The position numbers and the translations under genes are program-made. From positions 434,001 through 498,000 of the forward strand of contig JAHLKT010000003.1 of assembly GCA_020444545.1 (NCBI GenBank): a stretch of 64,000 nucleotides of DNA. The letters are read 5' to 3'. The number at the start of each line of letters is the position of its first letter. Positions within the stretch are counted from its first letter, which is position 1. Below are positions 4,738-60,851 of this stretch, piece after piece. This DNA comes from Desulfarculaceae bacterium. Lineage in GTDB: Bacteria; Desulfobacterota; Desulfarculia; Desulfarculales; Desulfarculaceae. The notes under the pieces are model-generated. The model ran no database searches, was not told where the DNA came from, and worked only from the letters and a program-made list of their open reading frames with translations.

Positions 4738-6773
4738 GACCGGACCTCCTCCAGGAGCGCGTTGTTATAGGGGTCCACGGACAGGCGCCAGCCAGTAGGC
4801 AGATAGACCGTGGTGTGTTCGGACTCCACCAGGGCGGGGCCGCTGATCTGGTGGCCGTTGCCCAGGCGGGCCCGGTCGTACACCGGCACCTTGGCCCCTT
4901 GGCTTTCCTTTTCCGCGAACACCTGACGCTCGCCCTTGATGGCCTCCTTGGCCTCGCCGGTGGCCGGGGGCATCTGGGGGAACTGGTAATGCGGCACCGA
5001 GGCTTGGGCCAAAAGGCTGATGGTGTTCAGGCTCAGGGCGCCGCCGCCTTCCCAGCCCTCGGCGGCCAGGAGCGCCTTGGCCTGCTCGGCCACGGCCTTG
5101 ATTTGGCTCGCGTCCTCGATCAGCTCCACCGGCGCGGCCACCTTGACCTCCGGGCCGCCTTCGCTCGGCTGCACCAGCAGCTCCAGGGCCTGGGCCATCT
5201 CCTCGGGGGCGAAGCCCTCGCCGCGCATGTCGCGCTGGGCCTCGGCGTCCATGGAGGCGTAGGCCGCCGCCAGGGCCTCGGCCAGGGCGGGGTCGTCCAG
5301 GCCCAGACCCACCCGGCGGTAGTAGAGGTGCCCCACGTCCATGCCCAGGGAGCTGAAGGCCGAGAACACCGCCGAGAAGGGGGTCATCACGATCTTCTTG
5401 AGGCCGGCGGCCGAGGCGATGTCGCAGATGTGGGCCGGCCCGGCCCCGCCGTAGACCACCAGCAGGGGATCGAAGCCCTCGCCGCGCTCGTTCTTGATGC
5501 GGGCCAGCTCCTCGGCCATGGCCTTGTCGATGTCCTGCTTGATAGCCAGGGCCGCCTCCTCGGGGCTGATGCCCAGAGGCTCGGCCACCTTGCTGGCCAG
5601 CAGCTCGCGGGCCTTGGCCGCGTTGAGCTTCATGGTGCCGCCCAGGAAGAAGTCCGGGTCCAGCAGGCCCAGCACCAGGTCCGCGTCGGTCACCGTGGGC
5701 TCGGACCCGCCCAGGTCGAAGCACACCGGGCCGGGCAGCGCGCCCGCCGACTGGGGCCCCACTTGCAGGCCCTTGCCGTTTACCGAGGCGATAGAGCCGC
5801 CCCCCGCGCCGATGGCCCGGATGGAGAGCATGGGCAGGTTCACCGCGAAGCCTTCCACGTCGGGCTCCAGGGTGTAACTGGGTTGGCCCGCGCTCACGTA
5901 GCCCAGGTCAAAGGAGGTGCCGCCCATGTCGGCCGAGATCAGGTCTTGGGCCCCGTAGAGCTGGCCGATGAGGCGCGCGCCCAACAGGCCCGCCGCCGGG
6001 CCGGAGTTGTAGGTGTTGATGGCCCGCGTCTTGGCCACCCGGGCCACGGCCCCGTTGTTGTGCACGATGAAAAGGTTCTTGGCGTAGAGCCGCTGGCGCA
6101 GCTCCTCGCCCGCCTTGTAGAGCAGGCGCACCAGCTTGGCGTGGATGTAGGCGTTCAAGACCGCCGCGTTGATCCGCGCCGCCTCGCCGCTGCGGCGGGT
6201 GATGTCCGAGGACAAGAACACCGGCACCGAGCCCAGGAAGTCGCGGGGGTAGAGTTCCTTGATCTGCCGCCGGGCCAGGCGCTCGTTGGCCGGGTTGCGG
6301 TCCGAGCCGGCCAGGGCCAGCACCAGGCAACGGGCCCCGGCGTCGATCAGCTCCTGAGCCATGGCCAGAACCTCGCCGGCCTCGGGCTCGGAGAGCACCG
6401 CGCCGTCCGGGCCGATCTCCCCGCCGATCTCGCGCACCATGTCCGGCGCCACCAGGGGAGCCTTGCCGCCGTCCTCCTGGCAGGGGGCGTACTCGCCGTG
6501 GCCCTTGCTGAGTAGCAGGCCCACCTTGGCCCCATCACGCTGGATGATGGTGTTGGTGCCGATGGTGTTGGAAAAGCGAATGATCTCGGTCTGGTAGAGC
6601 AGGTCCTCCACCGGCAGCCCGAAACGCGCCGCCCCGGCCTCGATGCATTTCAAGAAGCATTCGGTCAGGTCGTGCGGCGTGGTCGGCACCTTCACCGAGG
6701 CTGAGCGGTCCCCGGACAGGAAAAACCCGTCGGTGAAGGTCCCGCCCGTATCAATGTCTATGCTGAAGCTCAT
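4734..6773 (-). CDS. HyuA-type ATP-dependent carboxylase subunit (first copy)
   Basis: A 679-residue HyuA-family subunit with the phosphate-binding motif DTGGTFTD at residues 8-15, SADMGGTSFDLG in the central domain, and a VYGGAGPAHICDIA segment. It is a paralogue of the 714-residue HyuA further down the operon but differs throughout the C-terminal third. The ATG at 6773 is preceded by GGGAGGGG. It is the first structural gene, 20 bases after the TetR gene, and is translationally coupled to the gamma-type subunit. In the acetophenone carboxylase core two different HyuA-like subunits (alpha and alpha') pair with one HyuB-like and one small subunit. The same set is present here. Confidence 0.87.
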   Translation of the reverse strand: MSFSIDIDTGGTFTDGFFLSGDRSASVKVPTTPHDLTECFLKCIEAGAARFGLPVEDLLYQTEIIRFSNTIGTNTIIQRDGAKVGLLLSKGHGEYAPCQEDGGKAPLVAPDMVREIGGEIGPDGAVLSEPEAGEVLAMAQELIDAGARCLVLALAGSDRNPANERLARRQIKELYPRDFLGSVPVFLSSDITRRSGEAARINAAVLNAYIHAKLVRLLYKAGEELRQRLYAKNLFIVHNNGAVARVAKTRAINTYNSGPAAGLLGARLIGQLYGAQDLISADMGGTSFDLGYVSAGQPSYTLEPDVEGFAVNLPMLSIRAIGAGGGSIASVNGKGLQVGPQSAGALPGPVCFDLGGSEPTVTDADLVLGLLDPDFFLGGTMKLNAAKARELLASKVAEPLGISPEEAALAIKQDIDKAMAEELARIKNERGEGFDPLLVVYGGAGPAHICDIASAAGLKKIVMTPFSAVFSAFSSLGMDVGHLYYRRVGLGLDDPALAEALAAAYASMDAEAQRDMRGEGFAPEEMAQALELLVQPSEGGPEVKVAAPVELIEDASQIKAVAEQAKALLAAEGWEGGGALSLNTISLLAQASVPHYQFPQMPPATGEAKEAIKGERQVFAEKESQGAKVPVYDRARLGNGHQISGPALVESEHTTVYLPTGWRLSVDPYNNALLEEVRS

Positions 6774-47555: not shown

Positions 47556-50500
47556 TCAATCCGCGCGGGCCTCCTGGAACTGCCGCACCTGATGCATGAA
47601 GGCCTCCAGGCGGATGCGGCTGCCGGTCTGCTCCTGGCCGTCCATGGCCATGGGCAGGAAGGGCAAATTGCCGTGGTCCTCGCGGAAGCGCTTCATCAGG
47701 GCGTTGACGATGGTGCCGGGCATGCAGGTGAAGGGGATCACGTTGATCACCCCGCAGGCCCCCCTGCTGAACATGTCGCGGCTCTTGCCCACCGAAAGGA
47801 TGGCCTCGCCCTCGAAGCTGGGCTCCAGGTAGGGGTGGGCCATCTTGAGCACCTTTTTTACCTCGGGCTCGTGCAGGGTCTTCAAGGCCCCGTGCCAGGG
47901 GCGGCCCAGGGTTCGCTCGTCCTTGTGCTGGAAGTAGTTCTCCAACAGAGTGCCGATGAGGGCCGAGCGCTTTTTGAGCATCTTGGCCCTAAAGGCGCTG
48001 GTGTAGTTGGTGTAGAGCACCCACTCGCCGATGGTCGGGGTCCAGGCCTCGCCGCCCAGGGCCTCGATGGTGCGCACGATGTCCTCGTTGGCGAAGCGGT
48101 TGGCCCGGGTATAGATCTCGCCCACCACGCCCACCAGAGGCCGGTGGTTCACCCCGCTCTTGGGCACCGCCGCGAACTCCTTGCGCGCCTCGCCCATCAC
48201 CTTGCCCAGGTCGCCCTTGACCTTCATGGTGTCGCAGACCTTCTGCAAAAAGCGCTGGTAGAGCGCGTCGGTCTCGCCGGGGTTGGCCTCATAGGGCCGG
48301 GTCTCGTGCAGGGCCTTCATGAGCAGATCGATGGCCACCACCCCCTGCCAGCCCAGGCGGGTGAAGTCGCTGCCCCCCACCATGCCCAGCTCCTTGTAAA
48401 AGGTCTCGGACTGGTCCGGGGAGTAGATGCGGACTTGTTCGAAGCCCAGCTCGTCCAGCACCAGGCGGTGGTAGCGGTGGTATTGGCCGAAGCGGCAGGG
48501 GCCGGTGCCGCCGGGCATGAAAAAGGCGGTCTTGTCCGGCGGCGCGCCCTCGTCTATGAGCAGCTTGAGCAAATCGCCGGTGGTCAGGGCGCAGGGGTAG
48601 CACTCCTTGCCCGAGGTGTGGCGGCGGCCTAGCTCCAGGGTGCGCTGGTCGCTGTCGGGCAGGACCACGGCGTGGCCACCGCAGGCCTCGAAGGCGGCAG
48701 CCACCGCCTGGGAGTGGTCGGTCATGGGCGGTATGTAGATGGTGCATCCGCTGGCGTCGGTGTTGCGCCGGGGCACCGCCCGGGGCGCGGGGGGCTCGGT
48801 GGTCACGTTGCCGATGGAGTCCAGGAAGGCCTCCAGCCGGGTGATGGCCCCCACGTCGGCCGAGTGCTCGTCGATCTCGATCTCCAAAAAGGGCTTGCCG
48901 TGCATGATGCGCCGGAAGAAGTGGCCGATGAAGCTGTCCGGGCCGCAGCCGAAGTTGGTGATGTAGATGGCGTGCAGGCGCGGGTCTTCCCGGGCGATGA
49001 GCGCGGCGGCCAGGATCTTCTGGCCGTAGCGCCAGTACATCTCCGAAAGCTCGGGGTGGCCCATGTGCTGGTCCAGGTCCAGGAAGTCCATGGGTATGCA
49101 GAACACGCCGAGCTGGCGCATCTTCTGGGGCAGGCCCAGGTTCAGGCCGGGGTCGGCCCCGTTGTAGGGGCGGCTGACCACCACCATGGCCTGGTCCTCC
49201 GGGCCCATGGAGGCCAGCACCTCGCGGCCCCGCTCCTTTAGCTTCCGGTTGAAGTCGTCCTGGGCCCACCAGCCGGCCACGATGGCCGCCTCCAGGCCCT
49301 TGGTGGAGCCGCCGAGGTCTTGGATCAGCTTCTTGAGGTCGGCCCGCATGGTCTTGGGGTCATAGCCGAAGCGCAGGGGGGTGTCCACCAGGCGGCTCTG
49401 GCCGAAGTCCAGGGCGGCCGGGGCGGTGTAGCACAGGGTCTGGGCATAGGGGCAGACCTGGCCGTAGCCCAGCTCGTTGGTGGGCACCGGCACGTTGACC
49501 AGGGAGGGCAACAGGATCGTCCCCACCCCCCGGTCGATCAGCTCGGCCAAATGGCCGTGGGCCACCTTCACCGGGAAGCAGGGCTCGTTGACCACCGCCT
49601 CCACGCCCTTGTGGATCAGCTTCTTGGTGCTGGGCCCGCTTATCTCGACCTCGTAGCCCATCTGGTTGAGGAAGGCGCTGAAGAAGGGCAGCCACTCGCG
49701 GAAGAACATGGTGCGGGGGATGCCCACCGTGCCCCGGCGCTTTTTCTCCTCCACCGGCTTGGCGTAGGAGAGCATGAGCTCCTCGCGCTCGGCGAAGAGG
49801 TCCGGTATGTCGGTGCGCACCTTGGTATCGCGCTCCAGGTCGTACTTGTCGCAGCGCGAGCCGTAGTACAGGGGCCGCTTGAGCCCCTCCACCTTCACCT
49901 GCCGTATGGAGCAGGCGTTGGGGCAGCCCTTGCACTCGAAGGTGGAGATGGCGTAGCCGGTCTGGCTCACCTCAAAGCCCTTGAAGGAACTCTCATCCCA
50001 GGTCCGTTCGCGCATGGCCAACAGCGCCGCGCCGATGGCCCCGGTCACGTCGTGGTGGGGCGGCACGTGGATGGGCTTGCCGGTCACCGCCTCGAAGGCG
50101 GCCACGATGCCGTGGTTGGCCGCCGTGGCCCCCTGGTAGAAGATCTTCTTGCCGACGGCCCGGTCTTCCACCACCTTGTTCAGGTAGTTGTAGACGATGG
50201 AGTAGCTGAGCCCGGCCACCAGGTCGTCGATCTCGGCCCCGGCCGCCTGATGGGAAACCAGGTCGCTCTCCATGAACACGGTGCAGCGCTCGCCCATGCG
50301 CACCGGGTTGGGCGCGGCCAGGGCCTTGGCCCCGAACTCGCCCTTGATGGCGATACCCAGTTTCTCGGCCTGCTCCTCCAAAAAGCTGCCCGTGCCCGCG
50401 GCGCAGACCTTGTTCATCATGAAGTCGACGATGGCCCCGTTCTCCAGGGAGATGTACTTGGAGTCCTGGCCGCCGATCTCGAAGATGGTGTCCACCTCGG

Positions 50501-51749
50501 GGTCGATGTGGGCCGCCGCCGTGGCCTGGGCGGTGATCTCGTTGCGCACGATGTCCGCGCCGATGAAGTCGGCGGTGAGGTAGCGGCCGCTGCCCGTGGT
50601 GCCCGCGCCCAGGATCTCCACCCGGTCGCCGATGGCCTTGCCCACCAGCTTGAGCCCTTCCTTGACCGCCTCCAGGGGGCGGCCCGCGGTGAGCAGATAG
50701 GCCTTGGCCAGCACCTCGCCCTGGGGGTCGATGACCACCACGTTGGTGGAGATGGAGCCCACGTCCACGCCCAGATAGCCGGTGAGCGGCCCCTCGGGCA
50801 CGGTTATGGCCTTCAGGTCCTTGCCGTGGTGCGGGCCCAGCTCGAGCTTGGGCAGGCGCTTGGTCTCGCCCGCCGCCTCCTCGGCCCGTTGCCGAAGGGT
50901 ATCCAGGCCGGCCACCGGGCGCGCCAGGCCCTGGTCGCGGGCGAACAGGGCCGCGCCCAGAGCGCCCACGCAGCCGAAGTCCTCGGGGATCAGAAGCTCG
51001 CCGGGCTCGATGGCCAGGATGTCCACCAAGGCGCGGTGCACCCCCTGGTTGGCCGCCACCCCGCCGATGAAGGCCACCGGCGGCACCACCTTTTTGCCCT
51101 TGGCGATGTTGGACTTGAGGTTTCTGGCCATGGCAAAGCACAGCCCGGCCACGATGTCGTAGTCCGGAGTGGCTTCCTGCTGGAGGTGGATCATGTCGCT
51201 CTTGGCGAACACCGAGCAGCGCCCGGCCAGGCGGGGCGGGGCCTCGCTTTTAAGGGCGATTTCGGAAAACTGCTCGATGGTGAGCTGCAAGCGGTGGGAC
51301 TGCTGATCCAAAAACGACCCGGTGCCCGCGGCGCACATGGTGTTCATGGCGAAGTCCTCGATGCGCATACCCTCCGCGCCCGGACTCACCAGGATCATCT
51401 TGGCGTCCTCGCCGCCCATGTCGATGATGGTGCGGGCGGTGGGCACCGCCTGCTGCACGCCCCGCGCGGCGGCGATGATCTCGTTGACCACCTCCGCGCC
51501 CACCAGGGGAGCCAGGGTGGGCGCCCCCGAGCCGGTCACCGTCGCAGCCGCGAAGCTCTCGCGGGGATACTCGGCGAAGATGCGCTCCAGCACCTGGGCG
51601 GCCACGGCCAGGGGCCGCCCCTTGGTGCGGGTGTAATCGGCCATAAGCACCCGGCCGTCCGGGGCCAGGACCACGCTGTCCAGGCTCACCGAGCCCACGT
51701 CCAGGCCGAGAAAGAGTCCTTGCATCGCATCCGGGGCGGCTTTGCTCAT
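47556..51749 (-). CDS. Large acyl-CoA dehydratase activase (two ATPase domains + DUF2229/HgdB-like)
   Basis: A 1397-residue member of the long 2-hydroxyacyl-CoA dehydratase activator family. Two BadF/BcrA-type ASKHA ATPase domains follow one another (about residues 12-270 and 325-580). Each has GLDVGS- or GVDVGS-type phosphate loops and the interface cluster cysteine in CAAGTGSF (C139 and C449). Next come a DUF2229 region (near 660-900) opening VGIPRTMFFREW, and a C-terminal HgdB-like part with FGCGPDSF. Smaller relatives use ATP to pump an electron into dehydratases or benzoyl-CoA reductase; the large fused form has no settled substrate. No dehydratase subunits are adjacent. Stand-alone gene with AGGA before the ATG. 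Confidence 0.9.
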   Translation of the reverse strand: MSKAAPDAMQGLFLGLDVGSVSLDSVVLAPDGRVLMADYTRTKGRPLAVAAQVLERIFAEYPRESFAAATVTGSGAPTLAPLVGAEVVNEIIAAARGVQQAVPTARTIIDMGGEDAKMILVSPGAEGMRIEDFAMNTMCAAGTGSFLDQQSHRLQLTIEQFSEIALKSEAPPRLAGRCSVFAKSDMIHLQQEATPDYDIVAGLCFAMARNLKSNIAKGKKVVPPVAFIGGVAANQGVHRALVDILAIEPGELLIPEDFGCVGALGAALFARDQGLARPVAGLDTLRQRAEEAAGETKRLPKLELGPHHGKDLKAITVPEGPLTGYLGVDVGSISTNVVVIDPQGEVLAKAYLLTAGRPLEAVKEGLKLVGKAIGDRVEILGAGTTGSGRYLTADFIGADIVRNEITAQATAAAHIDPEVDTIFEIGGQDSKYISLENGAIVDFMMNKVCAAGTGSFLEEQAEKLGIAIKGEFGAKALAAPNPVRMGERCTVFMESDLVSHQAAGAEIDDLVAGLSYSIVYNYLNKVVEDRAVGKKIFYQGATAANHGIVAAFEAVTGKPIHVPPHHDVTGAIGAALLAMRERTWDESSFKGFEVSQTGYAISTFECKGCPNACSIRQVKVEGLKRPLYYGSRCDKYDLERDTKVRTDIPDLFAEREELMLSYAKPVEEKKRRGTVGIPRTMFFREWLPFFSAFLNQMGYEVEISGPSTKKLIHKGVEAVVNEPCFPVKVAHGHLAELIDRGVGTILLPSLVNVPVPTNELGYGQVCPYAQTLCYTAPAALDFGQSRLVDTPLRFGYDPKTMRADLKKLIQDLGGSTKGLEAAIVAGWWAQDDFNRKLKERGREVLASMGPEDQAMVVVSRPYNGADPGLNLGLPQKMRQLGVFCIPMDFLDLDQHMGHPELSEMYWRYGQKILAAALIAREDPRLHAIYITNFGCGPDSFIGHFFRRIMHGKPFLEIEIDEHSADVGAITRLEAFLDSIGNVTTEPPAPRAVPRRNTDASGCTIYIPPMTDHSQAVAAAFEACGGHAVVLPDSDQRTLELGRRHTSGKECYPCALTTGDLLKLLIDEGAPPDKTAFFMPGGTGPCRFGQYHRYHRLVLDELGFEQVRIYSPDQSETFYKELGMVGGSDFTRLGWQGVVAIDLLMKALHETRPYEANPGETDALYQRFLQKVCDTMKVKGDLGKVMGEARKEFAAVPKSGVNHRPLVGVVGEIYTRANRFANEDIVRTIEALGGEAWTPTIGEWVLYTNYTSAFRAKMLKKRSALIGTLLENYFQHKDERTLGRPWHGALKTLHEPEVKKVLKMAHPYLEPSFEGEAILSVGKSRDMFSRGACGVINVIPFTCMPGTIVNALMKRFREDHGNLPFLPMAMDGQEQTGSRIRLEAFMHQVRQFQEARAD

Positions 51750-52712: not shown

Positions 52713-52839
52713 AAGATTCCCTCCAGCCGAATAGGCTTAATGTGCCTTATAAATGTTCCAGCTAGGCGGGCTCCGTGTCAAGCCGCTGCCCGGCGGCAAT
52801 CAGTTTACAGTTTTCCCGGGCTCCGGTAGACTCGGGCGT

Positions 52840-53805
52840 ATGCAACTATTGGGCGTTACATTGCAATCTCCGTTCGTGGCCGCCCCGATGGCCGGGGTGA
52901 GCAGCCCGGCTTTTCGCCTGATGGCCCGCCGGGCCGGGGCGGCGATGGTCTACAGCGAGATGATCAGCGCCATAGGGCTCATGCGCCACCAGCCCCAGAC
53001 CCGGCGCCTCATGCGCCAGATTCCCGGCGAGCGCCCCCTGGTCTTGCAGCTTTTCGGCTCCGACCCCGAGGCCATGCACCAGGCGGCCAAGGTGGCCAGC
53101 GCCGAGGAGGTGGACGCCCTGGACGTGAACATGGGCTGCCCGGTGAAGAAAGTCCGCCGCCAGGGCGCGGGCAGCGCACTGCTGGCCAGCCCCTCCCACG
53201 CGGCCGAGGTCTTCGCCGCGGTGAAGGAGGGCTCCCGCCTGCCGGTGAGCGCCAAGATCCGCCTGGGCCCCCGGCCCGACACCACCGAGACTCTGGTGTT
53301 CAAGCTGGTCAGCGCCGGAGCGGCGGCCATCACCCTGCACGCACGCACCGCTTCCCAGCTCTTCGGCGGCAAGGCCGATTGGGAGGCGATCAAGCGCTTG
53401 GCCTCCTGGTGCCCGGTGCCGGTTATCGGCAACGGCGACGTTTTCTCCGGCCGCGACGCGGTGCGGATGCTGGGCGAAACCGGCTGCGCGGCGGTGATGA
53501 TCGGGCGGGGGGCCATGGGCGACCCCTGGATCTTCAGCCGGGCCGCCGCCCGCCTGGCCGGGCGCGAGCCCGAGCCGGTGACCCCGGCCATGAAGCGGGC
53601 CGCCCTGCAAGAGCATTTGGAGCTGGCCCGCTCCCTGGGCGGCGAGGGCCATGCCCTGCACTTCGTGCGCCAGTTCATGATGTGGTATTCCCGGGGCCTG
53701 CCCGGTGCGACGGCCTTCCGCCGGGCGGCCGGCTCCTGCAACGGCCTGGCCGAGCTGTGGCAAGAGTGCGAGAGATTCTTCGGCGGCCTGGAGCGGGCGG
53801 CATGA
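52840..53805 (+). CDS. dusB: tRNA-dihydrouridine synthase
   Basis: A 321-residue Dus-family flavoenzyme that reduces uridine to dihydrouridine in tRNA D-loops. Motifs seen: APMAGVSSPAFR at the start, DVNMGCPVKKV with the catalytic cysteine, FMN-site residues in KIRLG and HARTASQLF, and VIGNGDVFSG. The ATG at 52840 is adopted; an earlier frame lacks a ribosome site. Its stop overlaps the start of ispH (ATGA). DusB is the best match among the Dus types, though DusA/C cannot be fully excluded. Confidence 0.9.
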   Translation: MQLLGVTLQSPFVAAPMAGVSSPAFRLMARRAGAAMVYSEMISAIGLMRHQPQTRRLMRQIPGERPLVLQLFGSDPEAMHQAAKVASAEEVDALDVNMGCPVKKVRRQGAGSALLASPSHAAEVFAAVKEGSRLPVSAKIRLGPRPDTTETLVFKLVSAGAAAITLHARTASQLFGGKADWEAIKRLASWCPVPVIGNGDVFSGRDAVRMLGETGCAAVMIGRGAMGDPWIFSRAAARLAGREPEPVTPAMKRAALQEHLELARSLGGEGHALHFVRQFMMWYSRGLPGATAFRRAAGSCNGLAELWQECERFFGGLERAA

Positions 53806-55544
53806 GGGTGCGCCTGGCCCGGCACGCGGGCTTTTGCATGGGGGTGCGCCGGGCCATGGAACTGGTCCTGGCCCAGGCCCACCATAGCGGGACCAAGGTC
53901 TACACCTACGGCCCCCTGATCCACAACCCCCAGGTGTTGGAGCTGTTGGCCGGCAAGGGCATCGAGGCGCTGGGGGAGATACCGCCGCCGGGCAGCATGG
54001 ACGGAGGCACGGTGATCATCCGGGCCCACGGAGTGCCGCCCGAGGACAAGGCCCGCCTGAGCGAGGCGGGTTTCAGCCGTATCCTGGAGGGCACCTGCCC
54101 CCGGGTGATCCGGGTGCAGGCCATCATCAGCCGCGCGGCCAAAAAGGGCGCGGACGTGATCATCGTGGGCGACGCCAGCCACCCCGAGGTGGTGGGCCTG
54201 CTGGGTCACGCCCGGGGCCGGGGCCGGGTGGTGTCCAAGCCCATCGAGGTGGCCGATCTGCCTGAGCTCAAGCAGGTGGTGGCCGTGGCCCAGACCACCC
54301 AGACCAGCGAGAACTTCGCGGCCGTGGTGCGCGAGCTTACCAAGCGCTTCGGGCCGGTGGAGGTGCACGAGACGATCTGCGCGGCCACCCACCGCCGCCA
54401 GGACGAGGTGCGCGAGTTGGCCCGCCAGGTGGACGGCATGGTGGTGGTGGGCGGCCGCGACAGCGGCAACACCCGCCGCCTGGCCGAGGTGGCCGCCGAA
54501 TCGGGCCGCCCGGTGTTTTTGGTGGAGACCGAAGAAGAGCTGGCCGCCAAGGACCTGGCCCCCCTGGGCACGGTGGGGGTGACCGCCGGGGCCTCCACCC
54601 CCAACTGGCTCATCAAGCGGGTGCTCCGCGAGCTGGCCTCCCTGCGCTCGGACCGCGAAGGCGGCCTGTCCTGGGCCCTGCGCCGCGGTTTCCGCTTCCT
54701 GGTGCGCTCCCAGCTGCTGGTGGCCCTGGGCGCGGCGGGGGTGACCGGAGCCAGCTGCCTCCTGCAAGAGCTGGTGCCCCACCCGGCCCTGGCCGCCCTG
54801 GCCTTCTTCTATATCTACGCCATGCACATCCTCAACCAGTTCCTGGACAAGGAAGCAGGCCAATACAACGACCCGGACCGGGCCCAGTTTTTGATCAAGC
54901 ACCGCTTCCTGCTCATCGGGGCGGGCGTCTTCAGCGCGGCCGCCGCCCTGGTGCTGTGCTTTATGATAGGCACCTTGCCCTTCATCGTGGTCAGCCTGTT
55001 GAGCCTACTGGGCATCACCTATTCGCTCCCGATGGTGCCCCCTCCCCTGCGGCGGCGGCTCAACTTCGCCAGCCTCAAGGACATACCCGGCTCCAAGACG
55101 GTGAGCGCGGCCGGGGCCTGGGCGGTGGTGGCCGCGGTCCTGCCGCCCATGGCCTTCAACATCTGGCATCCGGTGTATTTGTCCCTGGCCTTTGTCTATG
55201 TGGCCACCCTGGTCTTCTGCCGCTGCGCCATCTTCGACGTGCTCGACGTGCAGGGCGACCTAGTGGTGGGCAAGGAGACCCTGCCCATCGTCCTGGGCGA
55301 AGCCAAGACCCAGCGGCTGGTGTGGTGGCTCTTGGGCGGCCTGGCCGGGCTGATGCTCCTGGCCCCCCTGGTGGGGGCTCCGGCCGGGGTGAGCTGGTCG
55401 CTCTTGTTGCCCATCGCGGGCATGGCCCTGATGCAGCGGGTGCTGGTCCGGGGCGACATGCTGCCCGGCGCGCTCAGCGAGGGCCTGGTGGATCTGAACT
55501 TCTGGCTGGCCGGGGCCTTGGCCCTGGCCTGGTGGCGGCTGTAA
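53802..55544 (+). CDS. ispH: IspH-UbiA fusion protein
   Basis: A 580-residue two-domain protein. Residues 1-285 are a complete IspH, 4-hydroxy-3-methylbut-2-enyl diphosphate reductase, with cluster cysteines C12, C99 and C193, substrate histidines H41, H76 and H127, the E129 acid and the SGNT loop, the last step of the MEP isoprenoid path. Residues 300-580 are a membrane UbiA-type prenyltransferase with about eight hydrophobic helices and aspartate motifs NQFLDKEAGQYND (345-357) and DVLDVQGD (479-486), the latter followed by KETLPIVLG. The frame runs through both without a stop. The ATG overlaps dusB. The acceptor of the UbiA part is unknown (quinone precursor, lipid or other). Confidence 0.9.
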   Translation: MRVRLARHAGFCMGVRRAMELVLAQAHHSGTKVYTYGPLIHNPQVLELLAGKGIEALGEIPPPGSMDGGTVIIRAHGVPPEDKARLSEAGFSRILEGTCPRVIRVQAIISRAAKKGADVIIVGDASHPEVVGLLGHARGRGRVVSKPIEVADLPELKQVVAVAQTTQTSENFAAVVRELTKRFGPVEVHETICAATHRRQDEVRELARQVDGMVVVGGRDSGNTRRLAEVAAESGRPVFLVETEEELAAKDLAPLGTVGVTAGASTPNWLIKRVLRELASLRSDREGGLSWALRRGFRFLVRSQLLVALGAAGVTGASCLLQELVPHPALAALAFFYIYAMHILNQFLDKEAGQYNDPDRAQFLIKHRFLLIGAGVFSAAAALVLCFMIGTLPFIVVSLLSLLGITYSLPMVPPPLRRRLNFASLKDIPGSKTVSAAGAWAVVAAVLPPMAFNIWHPVYLSLAFVYVATLVFCRCAIFDVLDVQGDLVVGKETLPIVLGEAKTQRLVWWLLGGLAGLMLLAPLVGAPAGVSWSLLLPIAGMALMQRVLVRGDMLPGALSEGLVDLNFWLAGALALAWWRL

Positions 55545-56240: not shown

Positions 56241-59200
56241 CTAGCGGCCCGTGTCCTTGAGTTCCCGCGCCCGCTGATCAAAGCGCCGGGCCGCCTCCAG
56301 CTGGAAGGAGGCGCCCAGGTGGCGCTTCTGCTCCTGGAAGCGGCGGCTGGTGCGCTCCCACAGCTCCTCCAACTCCTCCAGGCTCTTCAGGCGCGCCAGG
56401 CGGGCGTTGATGCGGTCCAGCCACTGGATGCGCAGGCGCTCGGCGTTCATCTCGAACAGATCGCGCAGGGCCGCCTGGCGGTCGGGGTTCAGCGGCAGCT
56501 CCAGTCCCTGGTCCCAGGCGGCCTGGAACATCTCCTCCAGGCGCTCCAGATCGCTCTCCAGGGCCATGCGCCGCCGCATGCGCTCCAGGAACTGCCCTCC
56601 CAAGCGGTCCAGGTTTTCCCGGAAGGCCTCCTCCAGGCGCTGCTGATAATCCAGGCTGCCCTGGGCGGTGAGGGTGAGCTTCTTCAGCTCCTGGTGATAG
56701 ATGCGCTTGAGCTTGCCCGGACTGGAGGCGCGGCGCACCGCCTCGATCTTGCGCCCCAGGCGCAACGAGTCGGCCACCCCCAGGCTGACCATGCGCTGCA
56801 AGGGCTCCAGGCCCAGGCTCAGGCCCTCGCGGGCCCCGATCAGGCCCGAAGCCGACTGGGGGTCCTCCACCAGGGCCGCGTAGTCCAGCCCGCCCACCAG
56901 TTCGTTGACTATCTCGAACTTGCGGCCCATGACCCGGGCCAGGGGCGCGAAGCTCACGGTAACCGGCCCCCCGGCCGCCTCGGGCAGCAGGGCCGCCGCG
57001 GCCAGGCCCAAAGTCAAAAGGCGGATCTGGTTGGGATAGGACAAGCGCTCGGCCGCCTGGGAAAAGGAGGCCAGGCGGCGGGGCTGGTCCTCGCGGGCCA
57101 GAGAGGGCAAGAGGAACTCGCGCACCGGCTCGCTGAGCTGCTCCAGGCCCCAGAGCACCCGGCGTCCCTCGTAGAGGTCGCGCTCGAAGTGCAGCGCGCC
57201 CACGGAGCGGAGGTTCTTGAGCCGGTAGATGTATTTAACCGGCACCTCGTTTTCCAGCATGAAAAGGTCGCTGGCATCGATGCGCACCAGGCCCCGGAGT
57301 TGGAGCAGGCGGTTGATGCCCGCCAGCACCCGGCCCTTTTCCAGCCAGGGCTCGCGGTCCCCGGCGGGCAGGCGGGTGTTGTCCAGCATGTGCCGCAGGC
57401 TCACCGCCGGAGCCCCGTCCTCGCGCAGCTCCAGATAGCGTTCCAGGGCCAGGCGGCGGCGGGCGGTGTCGGCGATCAGCTCCTCCTGGGCCTGGCGGGC
57501 CGAGGAGCCGGTGGCCGAGAGGCGGCGCATCAGGTCCAGGCGGGCGAAGTAGCGCTCCAGGAGATCCTCGGTCATCAGGCCCTCGCGGCGGGCGGCCCCG
57601 CAGACCACGGCCAAGAGGAACAGCGCCTCCACCAGGGGCGGGTCTTGCCAATCCAACAGCGGCCTGAGCCCCGCCAGACAGGCCTCGCCGAAGATCACCT
57701 GCCGGAACAGGTCGTGGCTCTCCAAAAGAAAAGCCAAATCGCGCGGCTGGCCCGGCCCCAGCTCCAGGTAGCTGAGTAGCGGCGAGGAGGACGCGGCCAG
57801 GGCGCCCTGGGGCCACTGCTCGTCGTAGAGCAGCACGGCCAGCATGAGCAGGCGGCCGATCTGGGGCTGGCGGCTGAGCAGCTGGGCCAGGGAGGAGGTC
57901 AGGCGCTGGAACTGGATCGGCGCGACCCCCACGATGCCCGCCGCCGAGGCCCCGAACTCCTGGCGGGCCATCTCGTGGCTCAGCTGCATGTCCTGGAAGC
58001 CCTCCAGGCGGCGTTGCTCCAGGGCGCTGAGCTTGAAGGCGGCGGCCAGGCGGCGCCGGGTCATGGGGTGCCCCGCCGGTTGGGGCAGCAGGCGGTCCAT
58101 GATATGCGGAGTGTGCCTGAGCATCCGGTCCAGGTGGTCGGCGAAGCGGGGCAGATAGAAAAGCTGCTCCACCAGATAGCGCTCCAGGCGTCCCCGCAGG
58201 CGCTCGGCGCGGTCGGCCATTTCCTTGAGGGCCTGGGGCATGGGCTGGAGTTGGGCCGCGAAGAAGCGGGAGAGCTCGTGGCAGGAGCGGTCCATCCGCC
58301 CCAGGCGGGCGGCCGGGGTGGCGGCCAGGGGTCCGGCCTCGGTCTCGCGCACCAGGCGGCTCAGGCGGTTCAGCTCCTGGCCCGGGTCGATGAACAGGGG
58401 GGTCAGGGCCCCGGTGGCCGGGTCCAAGACCAGATAAAGGCCCGAGTCGCCCAGATAGGCCTCCTTGCCCGCGGCCAGGGTCTTGCGCAGCCGCACCAGG
58501 TCGGCGGGCGGCAGCTCCTCGGGCGTGAAGGCCGCCAGGGCGCGGCGCAGCTTGCTCAGGCGCTCGTCCAGGCCGGCCAGGTCGCCCCCGGCCAGCAGGG
58601 GGTTGAAGTTGATCAGGTGCTTTTCGCTCACGTGCACGCTGATCCACAGCAGGGTGAAGCTGGCCGCCGTGCCCAGGCGGGGCAGCAAGCGGCCGGTGCC
58701 GTGCAGCTCGCTGCTTAAGAGGGCGCGGAAGAAATAGGGCCGGGCCGACTCGTCGCCCTGGTAGTAGTGCTCCACGAAGCGCCGCTCCTGGCGCACCAGC
58801 TCGATGACCTGGCCGATGCGCTCCAGGCGGCCGGGGTCGAAATCGGCCATGGCCTCCTTTTCGCGCGGGCCGGAGCGCTCCAGGCGCTGCCAGTCGTCCA
58901 GGTATTCGAACAGGTCGAACATCTTGAGCATCTTGCGGGTGGCCTTGGCCTGCACCCCGCCCGCCCGGCTTATCTGGGCGTCCAGGATGTCGTCCCAGGT
59001 GAGGCCCGGCTCGGTGAGCACCCGGATGGCCTTGTCGTAGAGCTCGAACATCTCCTTGGCCTGGCCGGGGCTCAGGCCCGCCGCGCTGGCCGCCGCGGCC
59101 TCGGCCACCGAGAGCAGGCGGTAGAGCCTGACCGTGGCCAGGGCCTCCTCGATGTCCGCGTAGTTGTTCAGGTCGGTCAGGGGGTGCAAAGAGGTCTCGG

Positions 59201-60851
59201 GCAGCTTGCCGAAGGTCACGCGGGTCATGGTGGAGTGGCCCAGCACCATGAGATAGAGCTGCAACAAGGGGCCGGGCTCCACCCCCATGAGCGAGAGCTG
59301 CTCCAGGTTGTCCAAGACCGGGGTGCGCGGCCCCAGCACGTTCTGGGGGTTGAGCCGCTCCTCCAGGCGGGCCAGGCGCGGAGCCAGCTCCATGAGCCGG
59401 CGCACGTCCCTTAGCTGGTTCTGGTGGGCGCTGGCCTCGAAGGGCTTGCGCAAACGGCTCAGCTCCAGGCCGGGCAACTGGGTGTAGAGCCCCTGGCGCA
59501 CCTGCTCCAGTATCTCCAAGACCCTGAGCACATAGCCGAAGGAGTCCTTGTAGGCGGCCAGAAGCTCGCGCTCGCAGCCCGCGATGCGCCGCCGGCGCAC
59601 CCGCCCAGCCACCGCCTCGGCGGTCTCGGGGGGCTGGCGGCGCGCCCCCTGGAACAGGGCCAGGGTGGCCGGGAACACGCCCTCGATCTGGTAGCGCGAC
59701 TCCCACTCGGAGCGCTGCACCTCGGGCAGCACCGTGGTCAGGCGCTCGGAAGAGAAAAAGGCCCCGAACCACCGACTCCATCCGGCCAGGAGGCGCTCGT
59801 CGCTGCCCCGGGGCAGGGGCAGGTCCTGGTAGTCCAGGCGGTCTATCTGCTCCGGCTCCAACGAGGCCAGGCTGCGCCCTTCCAGCAGGCCTTCCACGGT
59901 CTCGTGGTACACCCCCAGGCCGCTGAGGAAGGAGTAGAAGTCGAAGCGGTTGACCTCCATGGCCAGGTCCCCGGCGCTCTGATAGCGGCGGCGGGTGCGG
60001 TAAACGTGGCTGAACATGAGGAAGCGCTTGAAGTCCAGCTGGTTCCTGAACTGCACCTCCATGGTGTCGTGGGTGGAGGCCAGGGGCCGGTCGGCGAGTA
60101 TGAGCAGCTCGCCGCCTTCGCCCAGGAGCTGGTGCAAACGGCTGGCCGCGAAGTAGCCCAGGTCCTCGCGGGAGCGCCGTTCGTCGGGCTCGGCCGCCCC
60201 GGCCAAGCGCAAAAAGTCGCCGAAGAGCTCACGGGGCTCGGCCACCAGCACCAGGGCCTCCAAGAAGGCGGGCGGGTGGGTGACCGCCTCCAGGGAGTCG
60301 AGCACCACGAACTCCAGGTGGGGCATGCGGCTGCTCAGCTCGGGCAACAAGAGCTCGCTCTCGATGCTCACCAGGCCGACCCTGAGCGTCTCCTTGAGCC
60401 GCCGGGCCATGAGCCCGCTGAGGAAGGCGATGATCTCGTCGGCCCGGGCCCGCACCTCCACCAGGAAGTGGGCCAGGTATTGCCGGGGGATGAGGTAGAA
60501 GGGCGCGCCCTGGCGGCTGTAGCGGATGAGCATCCCCAGGCGCTTGAAGATGTCGTTGAGCTTGCGGTAGTTGGCCGCCACGTCGCCCGCGTTGCCCAGG
60601 TCCAGCTTTTCCACCAGCTCGGCCTCGGCCGGAGGCAGGGTGGCGTGCTCGAACAGGCCCAGGCCGTAGGCGTTGCCCCCCATGCGGTCGGGCAAAAACG
60701 GCGGGTGATCCTCGGCCGGATAGGTGCCCAGGGGCACGTCCTCCGGATCGATGCCCAGCTCACCGAAGCGCTCGGGGTCGATGATGCGGTAGAGTCCCGC
60801 CAAACGCCGCGCTTCGGGGGGCAGGGCCGCCTTGGAGCCGGGATGGGGCAC
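56241..60851 (-). CDS. 1536-residue protein of unknown function
   Basis: I do not recognise this protein. It starts at a GTG (60851) with AGAGGAAG upstream and runs 1536 residues without interruption. It has no signal peptide or clear membrane helix, no Walker, kinase or cysteine-cluster motif, and only a handful of cysteines. It is rich in Leu, Arg, Glu and Ala and appears almost wholly helical. The last 170 residues (about 1365-1530) have coiled-coil-like heptads. Codon use matches the neighbours, so it is a resident gene. A good promoter, own terminator and monocistronic layout indicate a real, expressed protein. Its length and helical make-up suggest a scaffold or a large regulator, but that is a guess. 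Confidence 0.75.
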   Translation of the reverse strand: MPHPGSKAALPPEARRLAGLYRIIDPERFGELGIDPEDVPLGTYPAEDHPPFLPDRMGGNAYGLGLFEHATLPPAEAELVEKLDLGNAGDVAANYRKLNDIFKRLGMLIRYSRQGAPFYLIPRQYLAHFLVEVRARADEIIAFLSGLMARRLKETLRVGLVSIESELLLPELSSRMPHLEFVVLDSLEAVTHPPAFLEALVLVAEPRELFGDFLRLAGAAEPDERRSREDLGYFAASRLHQLLGEGGELLILADRPLASTHDTMEVQFRNQLDFKRFLMFSHVYRTRRRYQSAGDLAMEVNRFDFYSFLSGLGVYHETVEGLLEGRSLASLEPEQIDRLDYQDLPLPRGSDERLLAGWSRWFGAFFSSERLTTVLPEVQRSEWESRYQIEGVFPATLALFQGARRQPPETAEAVAGRVRRRRIAGCERELLAAYKDSFGYVLRVLEILEQVRQGLYTQLPGLELSRLRKPFEASAHQNQLRDVRRLMELAPRLARLEERLNPQNVLGPRTPVLDNLEQLSLMGVEPGPLLQLYLMVLGHSTMTRVTFGKLPETSLHPLTDLNNYADIEEALATVRLYRLLSVAEAAAASAAGLSPGQAKEMFELYDKAIRVLTEPGLTWDDILDAQISRAGGVQAKATRKMLKMFDLFEYLDDWQRLERSGPREKEAMADFDPGRLERIGQVIELVRQERRFVEHYYQGDESARPYFFRALLSSELHGTGRLLPRLGTAASFTLLWISVHVSEKHLINFNPLLAGGDLAGLDERLSKLRRALAAFTPEELPPADLVRLRKTLAAGKEAYLGDSGLYLVLDPATGALTPLFIDPGQELNRLSRLVRETEAGPLAATPAARLGRMDRSCHELSRFFAAQLQPMPQALKEMADRAERLRGRLERYLVEQLFYLPRFADHLDRMLRHTPHIMDRLLPQPAGHPMTRRRLAAAFKLSALEQRRLEGFQDMQLSHEMARQEFGASAAGIVGVAPIQFQRLTSSLAQLLSRQPQIGRLLMLAVLLYDEQWPQGALAASSSPLLSYLELGPGQPRDLAFLLESHDLFRQVIFGEACLAGLRPLLDWQDPPLVEALFLLAVVCGAARREGLMTEDLLERYFARLDLMRRLSATGSSARQAQEELIADTARRRLALERYLELREDGAPAVSLRHMLDNTRLPAGDREPWLEKGRVLAGINRLLQLRGLVRIDASDLFMLENEVPVKYIYRLKNLRSVGALHFERDLYEGRRVLWGLEQLSEPVREFLLPSLAREDQPRRLASFSQAAERLSYPNQIRLLTLGLAAAALLPEAAGGPVTVSFAPLARVMGRKFEIVNELVGGLDYAALVEDPQSASGLIGAREGLSLGLEPLQRMVSLGVADSLRLGRKIEAVRRASSPGKLKRIYHQELKKLTLTAQGSLDYQQRLEEAFRENLDRLGGQFLERMRRRMALESDLERLEEMFQAAWDQGLELPLNPDRQAALRDLFEMNAERLRIQWLDRINARLARLKSLEELEELWERTSRRFQEQKRHLGASFQLEAARRFDQRARELKDTGR

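Follow-up and report, generated by a model that had tools for sequence, protein, structure and literature searches.

The window, a stretch of 64,000 nucleotides from a Desulfarculaceae bacterium (contig JAHLKT010000003.1), carries at 53802..55544 (+) a gene which encodes, in one open frame of 580 amino acids, an IspH protein followed by a membrane domain of the UbiA type. Across about 100 relatives, the sequences suggest that keeping IspH at the membrane is of more consistent importance in these proteins than prenyl-transfer chemistry. The explanation we prefer is that the UbiA half acts in cis by anchoring IspH at the membrane, a role common to the phylum, and that the fusion is not retained for the sake of canonical prenyl transfer; we give this explanation an even chance of being right.

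The fusion is not new. Since Rao et al. (2015) described 47 IspH-UbiA “Rosetta stone” proteins, mostly from Desulfobacterales, the window protein is a Desulfarculaceae member of an already published class (PMC4746011). From its two DXXXD repeats they judged the UbiA half to be probably a prenyltransferase, and reported its role as unknown; expression was unsuccessful and gave mostly truncated protein (PMC4746011). No later work on the function of IspH-UbiA was found in the literature searched. The statement in the earlier note that there is no characterised example is thus true for function, but the class itself was published in 2015 (PMC4746011), and the search for other fusions which that note proposed did find many. 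New here are the counts of its distribution in the phylum, the observation that this UbiA type is seen only fused, and the erosion of the UbiA ligands as against an invariant IspH.

The frame begins with the ATG at 53802, its stop ends at 55544, there is no internal stop codon, and homologues match it over their full length. Pfam recognises both parts, LYTB at amino acids 3-278 (E 1.1e-85) and UbiA (PF01040) at amino acids 330-545 (E 7.8e-13, 48.7 bits against a cut-off of 34.2), which confirms the uninterrupted frame reported earlier and gives the arrangement of the class, an N-terminal IspH and a C-terminal UbiA in a single chain. The IspH domain (amino acids 1-283, 53802..54650, +) scores 266.8 bits with TIGR00216 (cut-off 187.85), matches PDB 3dnf with E 3e-60, and in its AlphaFold model superimposes on E. 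coli IspH with a VIA Z of 32. It had been called complete, and rightly so: the cysteines C12, C99 and C193 are present together with H41, H76, H127, E129, T166, Q167, S221, N223 and S265, which include the residues of the substrate site. Nearly all of these are invariant in an alignment of 48 fusions, C12 and C99 in all and C193 in 47, the remaining one being gapped there. The genome has a single ispH, the fusion, which from the sequence supports the fused IspH being a functional HMBPP reductase.

The UbiA-fold membrane domain (amino acids 288-580, 54663..55541, +) belongs to the UbiA superfamily by family model and by fold. AlphaFold predicts the whole chain with a mean pLDDT of 88 and a pTM of 0.79, and the UbiA half matches Aeropyrum pernix UbiA (4od5) with a VIA Z of 19.4 (rmsd 3.1 over 251 residues) and A. 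fulgidus UbiA with a Z of 18.7, both above the background of about 15 given by isoprenyl diphosphate synthases. A profile of the fused domain run against PDB sequences gave just a weak and non-significant match to chlorophyll synthase (E 0.21). In the model the terminal helix of IspH, which runs to amino acid 283, is nearly continuous with the first UbiA helix starting at 288, and the linker is of conserved length: in 102 of the 110 aligned sequences the two anchor positions flanking it are 34-37 residues apart.

In A. fulgidus UbiA the residues N68, D72, D198 and D202 bind Mg2+, R22 and K146 bind the diphosphate, and Y139 is close to the cleaved bond; binding of GPP is abolished in the N68A, D72A, R22A and K146A mutants, and E. 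coli MenA requires the equivalents of N68, D72, D198, D202 and Y139 (PMC4106721). When these positions are transferred by the spacing of the motifs, and not from superposed coordinates, all four Mg2+ ligands are found in the window protein as N345, D349, D482 and D486, and Y407 is the equivalent of Y139, so that all five mapped residues are kept. The first aspartate motif, NQFLDKEAG (amino acids 345-353, 54834..54860, +), is nevertheless degenerate: it reads N345-Q-x-x-D349-x-x-x-G353, that is NQXXDXXXG where the strict form is NDXXDXXXD, keeping the two Mg2+ ligands and lacking the other two consensus aspartates. The second, DVLDVQGD (amino acids 479-486, 55236..55259, +), is complete as D479-x-x-D482-x-x-G-D486. 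The earlier description of both aspartate motifs as present is accordingly right for the second and for the ligands of the first, and wrong for two of the three consensus aspartates of the first. This lowers the claim for a canonical enzyme and leaves that for a UbiA fold unaffected. Between the motifs lies a clade-specific loop, KDIPGSK (amino acids 426-432, 55077..55097, +), in which D427, P429 and K432 are invariant in the 48 fusions.

An IspH match was obtained in 141 of 148 sampled Desulfobacterota genomes and a fusion in at least 66 of these 141, namely 61 with matches spanning both domains and five (L131-L135) which matched in the IspH half alone and whose ORFs read as IspH followed by a membrane domain. 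A profile search with the UbiA half gave 51 genome-contig loci, nearly all of them fusions; of the exceptions, two lie at contig ends, one (L104) is interrupted by an in-frame stop, and one is an unfused archaeal gene. The fused UbiA type was found in none of seven genomes with a stand-alone IspH, while the query did match in five other genomes, and no stand-alone relative was found in plasmids. Within the Desulfobacterota sampled, where most of the relatives compared are MAGs, we found this UbiA type nowhere except in fusion with IspH. Stand-alone relatives occur outside the phylum, but among 41 archaeal genomes from one phylum there were only two; the neighbourhood of one of them (L107) held nothing informative.

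Stand-alone IspH also occurs inside the fusion clades of a quick tree, in L126 beside the family f38 and in a genome within the Desulfarculaceae (G009). The latter has synteny identical to the window, in the order radical-SAM, dusB, ispH and a convergent gene; its ispH terminates with TAG, and no trace of a UbiA half remains. Two fairly complete drafts of the same genus and family (G002 and G013) gave no IspH match, probably because of assembly gaps. In L104, from a termite-gut relative (5134-6255 and beyond, +), IspH is intact and a single stop interrupts the UbiA half, whose frame is otherwise conserved; this is either a recent loss or an assembly error.

Evidence for our preferred explanation comes from the fate of the Mg2+ ligands. 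In 101 non-redundant fusions, which include the Desulfobacterota phylum sample, the four ligands are intact in 43 (the window protein among them), partly lost in 48 and essentially gone in 10, so at least one ligand is lost in 58. By a simple pattern, 40 of the 101 fusions lack the N or D of the first motif; among the other UbiA genes from the same genomes the figure is 2 of 21. Counted by family, 11 of the 35 families from the phylum sample have all members intact, 19 all partial, 3 are motif-less and 2 mixed. Of the 48 aligned fusions, 37 retain D349 and 34 retain D482, whereas the IspH site is essentially invariant. A member of the window's own family (L196, G012) has R in place of D349, in a frame of 623 amino acids in which the match is split in two.

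The motif-less state occurs in three places on the IspH tree (f29, f33 and f38), which was built by a quick method with moderate support and a midpoint root, and the membrane domain is kept in each. The domains of f38 and f33 are recognisable as UbiA (E 7e-31 to 7e-9), the alignment of the motif-less domains being uncertain in detail, and the homology of f29 to UbiA is a weak profile score (E about 2e-5). A window pair gave omega 0.135 for the UbiA half and 0.40 for the IspH half, and pairs within f29 and f33 gave about 0.17-0.35 for the UbiA half with IspH evolving more slowly, values which are rough because distant pairs are near saturation. Purifying selection thus acts on the UbiA half, also in the motif-less f29 and f33 pairs.

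A ligand which is repeatedly lost, in a domain which is kept fused, constrained and was never found detached, makes a role in cis as membrane anchor the best explanation. The sole IspH of the cell would be held at the inner membrane by the C-terminal UbiA-fold domain, to which the short linker of conserved length joins it, and UbiA topology would place it on the cytoplasmic face. The UbiA part would thus serve IspH in cis, anchoring being the role common to the phylum; in the window lineage it probably also binds an isoprenyl diphosphate with Mg2+, because the ligands there are intact and constrained, and it may even transfer a prenyl group. The tethering of IspH to a membrane domain, proposed earlier, is supported, while we infer localisation, topology and ligand binding. 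It should be noted that some observations speak against a bare anchor. The window lineage keeps all four ligands and has a UbiA half at least as constrained as IspH, as expected for a working enzyme, and Y407, D427, P429, K432, R474, D479 and D486 are invariant in the UbiA half of the 48 fusions, which is more than a plain anchor needs. A lost aspartate might also be compensated by other residues.

The MEP pathway is usually regarded as soluble. If IspH is membrane-bound throughout the phylum, the last step of this pathway would have a fixed location at the membrane and might be under feedback control there. The combination of an invariant IspH with eroding UbiA ligands in a domain that is kept makes the ten-year-old question of the UbiA half directly testable, with natural variants for comparison which are intact, partly eroded, motif-less or UbiA-free.

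The neighbourhood gives little guidance to a pathway. A dusB-type tRNA-dihydrouridine synthase gene (52753..53805, +), the stop of which overlaps the fusion start (ATGA), is directly upstream, and dusB keeps this upstream place in 19 loci. Clustering around 51 loci found the other neighbours to be lineage-specific, for example ParA/ParB in Desulfobacterales and dxs in one Syntrophales MAG, and because of this no acceptor pathway emerges: no acceptor-pathway gene is a conserved neighbour of the fusion. In termite-gut relatives and one other lineage a gene for a glycosyltransferase of family 2 (GT2) lies directly downstream, often overlapping the fusion (L101:6882-7673, +; also L102-L110 and L084-L086). 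Further genes in the window include one for a 1536-aa protein without a Pfam or NCBIfam match (56241-60851, -), which is conserved beside the fusion, in convergent orientation, in about ten loci of Desulfarculaceae and by eye adjoins the stand-alone ispH of G009, and one for a 1397-aa activase-type protein with BcrAD/BadFG ATPase and DUF2229 parts (47556-51749, -), which is conserved in Desulfarculaceae.

The alternative which survives best, and which we regard as possible though doubtful, is that the UbiA half actively transfers prenyl groups to some acceptor, the fusion providing local DMAPP/IPP or downstream prenyl diphosphates; this is the view both of Rao et al. (PMC4746011) and of the earlier note, which spoke of channelling. 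It agrees with the four Mg2+ ligands and the equivalent of the catalytic tyrosine, Y407, in the window protein, with the omega of 0.135, and with archaeal stand-alone relatives which are close to canonical. The products of IspH are C5 units, for the most part IPP, and characterised UbiA enzymes in most cases use longer chains, a discrepancy which counts against it, as does the lack of a conserved acceptor-pathway neighbour. In the window protein, with its intact ligands and constrained UbiA half, channelling to a working prenyltransferase may occur; as a general cause it is weakened by the loss of ligands in 58 of 101 fusions, by the UbiA-free G009 and by a UbiA type never found detached from IspH in the phylum, and it would not explain retention across the phylum.

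A regulatory role has a precedent in human UBIAD1, a UbiA protein which binds HMG-CoA reductase, senses GGPP and controls the key enzyme of the mevalonate pathway (PMC9579336, PMC9314443). By analogy the fused domain could be a repurposed prenyltransferase, working solely in cis as a tether and as a sensor of prenyl diphosphate controlling IspH, a covalent bacterial counterpart of UBIAD1-HMGCR with catalytic residues variously eroded through the phylum; we find this unlikely. Less likely again is that it is an isoprenoid sensor in the manner of UBIAD1, which would tune the activity or stability of IspH on binding a prenyl diphosphate within the membrane. The obligate fusion to IspH, the rigid linker length and the invariance of Y407, K432 and D486 while the catalytic ligands vary would suit such a sensor, but in the motif-less f29, f33 and f38 the sensor site would be gone, and yet the fusion is kept.

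That the UbiA half is a menaquinone prenyltransferase is most improbable. It is a member of the superfamily, but its best UbiA-type NCBIfam match scores 33.9 bits where the cut-off is 238, and it comes near the cut-off of no NCBIfam UbiA model, those for MenA and MqnP included. The genome has three UbiA-family genes besides the fused domain, one MqnP-like (TIGR01475, 281.5 bits against 180.8), one MenA-like below its cut-off and one without assignment, and because of the first two a menA role for the fusion is unlikely; the earlier suggestion to look for a second ispH or menA thus gave no second ispH, but it did give these separate genes. G009, moreover, has a single UbiA gene, MqnP-like by sequence, and none fused.

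It is scarcely credible that a sequencing error has joined two genes or that the frame yields two proteins. About 100 homologues keep the joined frame and a narrow linker length, and fusions over the full length, with 36-90% identity, occur in most relatives searched and on dozens of named contigs. In the linker region a start codon accompanied by a weak SD-like stretch is present in 10 of 51 fusions, but internal starts are not conserved, for which reason separate initiation of the UbiA half was rejected, and the window linker has none with an SD-like stretch.

Among known systems the IspH-UbiA fusions of sulfate-reducing bacteria described by Rao et al. are the same in domain order, similar in length and likewise from anaerobic Desulfobacterota; that set comprised 47 proteins, mostly of Desulfobacterales, whereas the present survey covers dozens of families in which the catalytic ligands are often eroded. 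The IspH-RPS1 fusions of Firmicutes (PMC4746011) also carry an extra C-terminal module on IspH, but there it consists of soluble S1 repeats and here of a membrane domain. The MqnP, MenA and UbiA quinone prenyltransferases share fold and superfamily with the fused domain, and differ in being encoded by separate genes in this genome. Its closest unfused relatives are the archaeal stand-alone UbiA proteins (L107 of Nezhaarchaeota and L119). L107 reaches 156 bits with an HMM built from the fused domain, against 23 bits or less for other UbiA genes of the Desulfobacterota genomes; it shares KDIPGxK and DVRDVRGD with the fused domain, but is unfused and keeps the third aspartate of the first motif. 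The UBIAD1-HMGCR complex of animals (PDB 8DJK) resembles the fusion in that a UbiA-family membrane protein is attached to an enzyme of isoprenoid precursor synthesis. The two are separate proteins there, the pathway is that of mevalonate and the regulation is by ERAD, so the likeness is one of analogy only, if a fair one for a putative sensing function of the fused domain.
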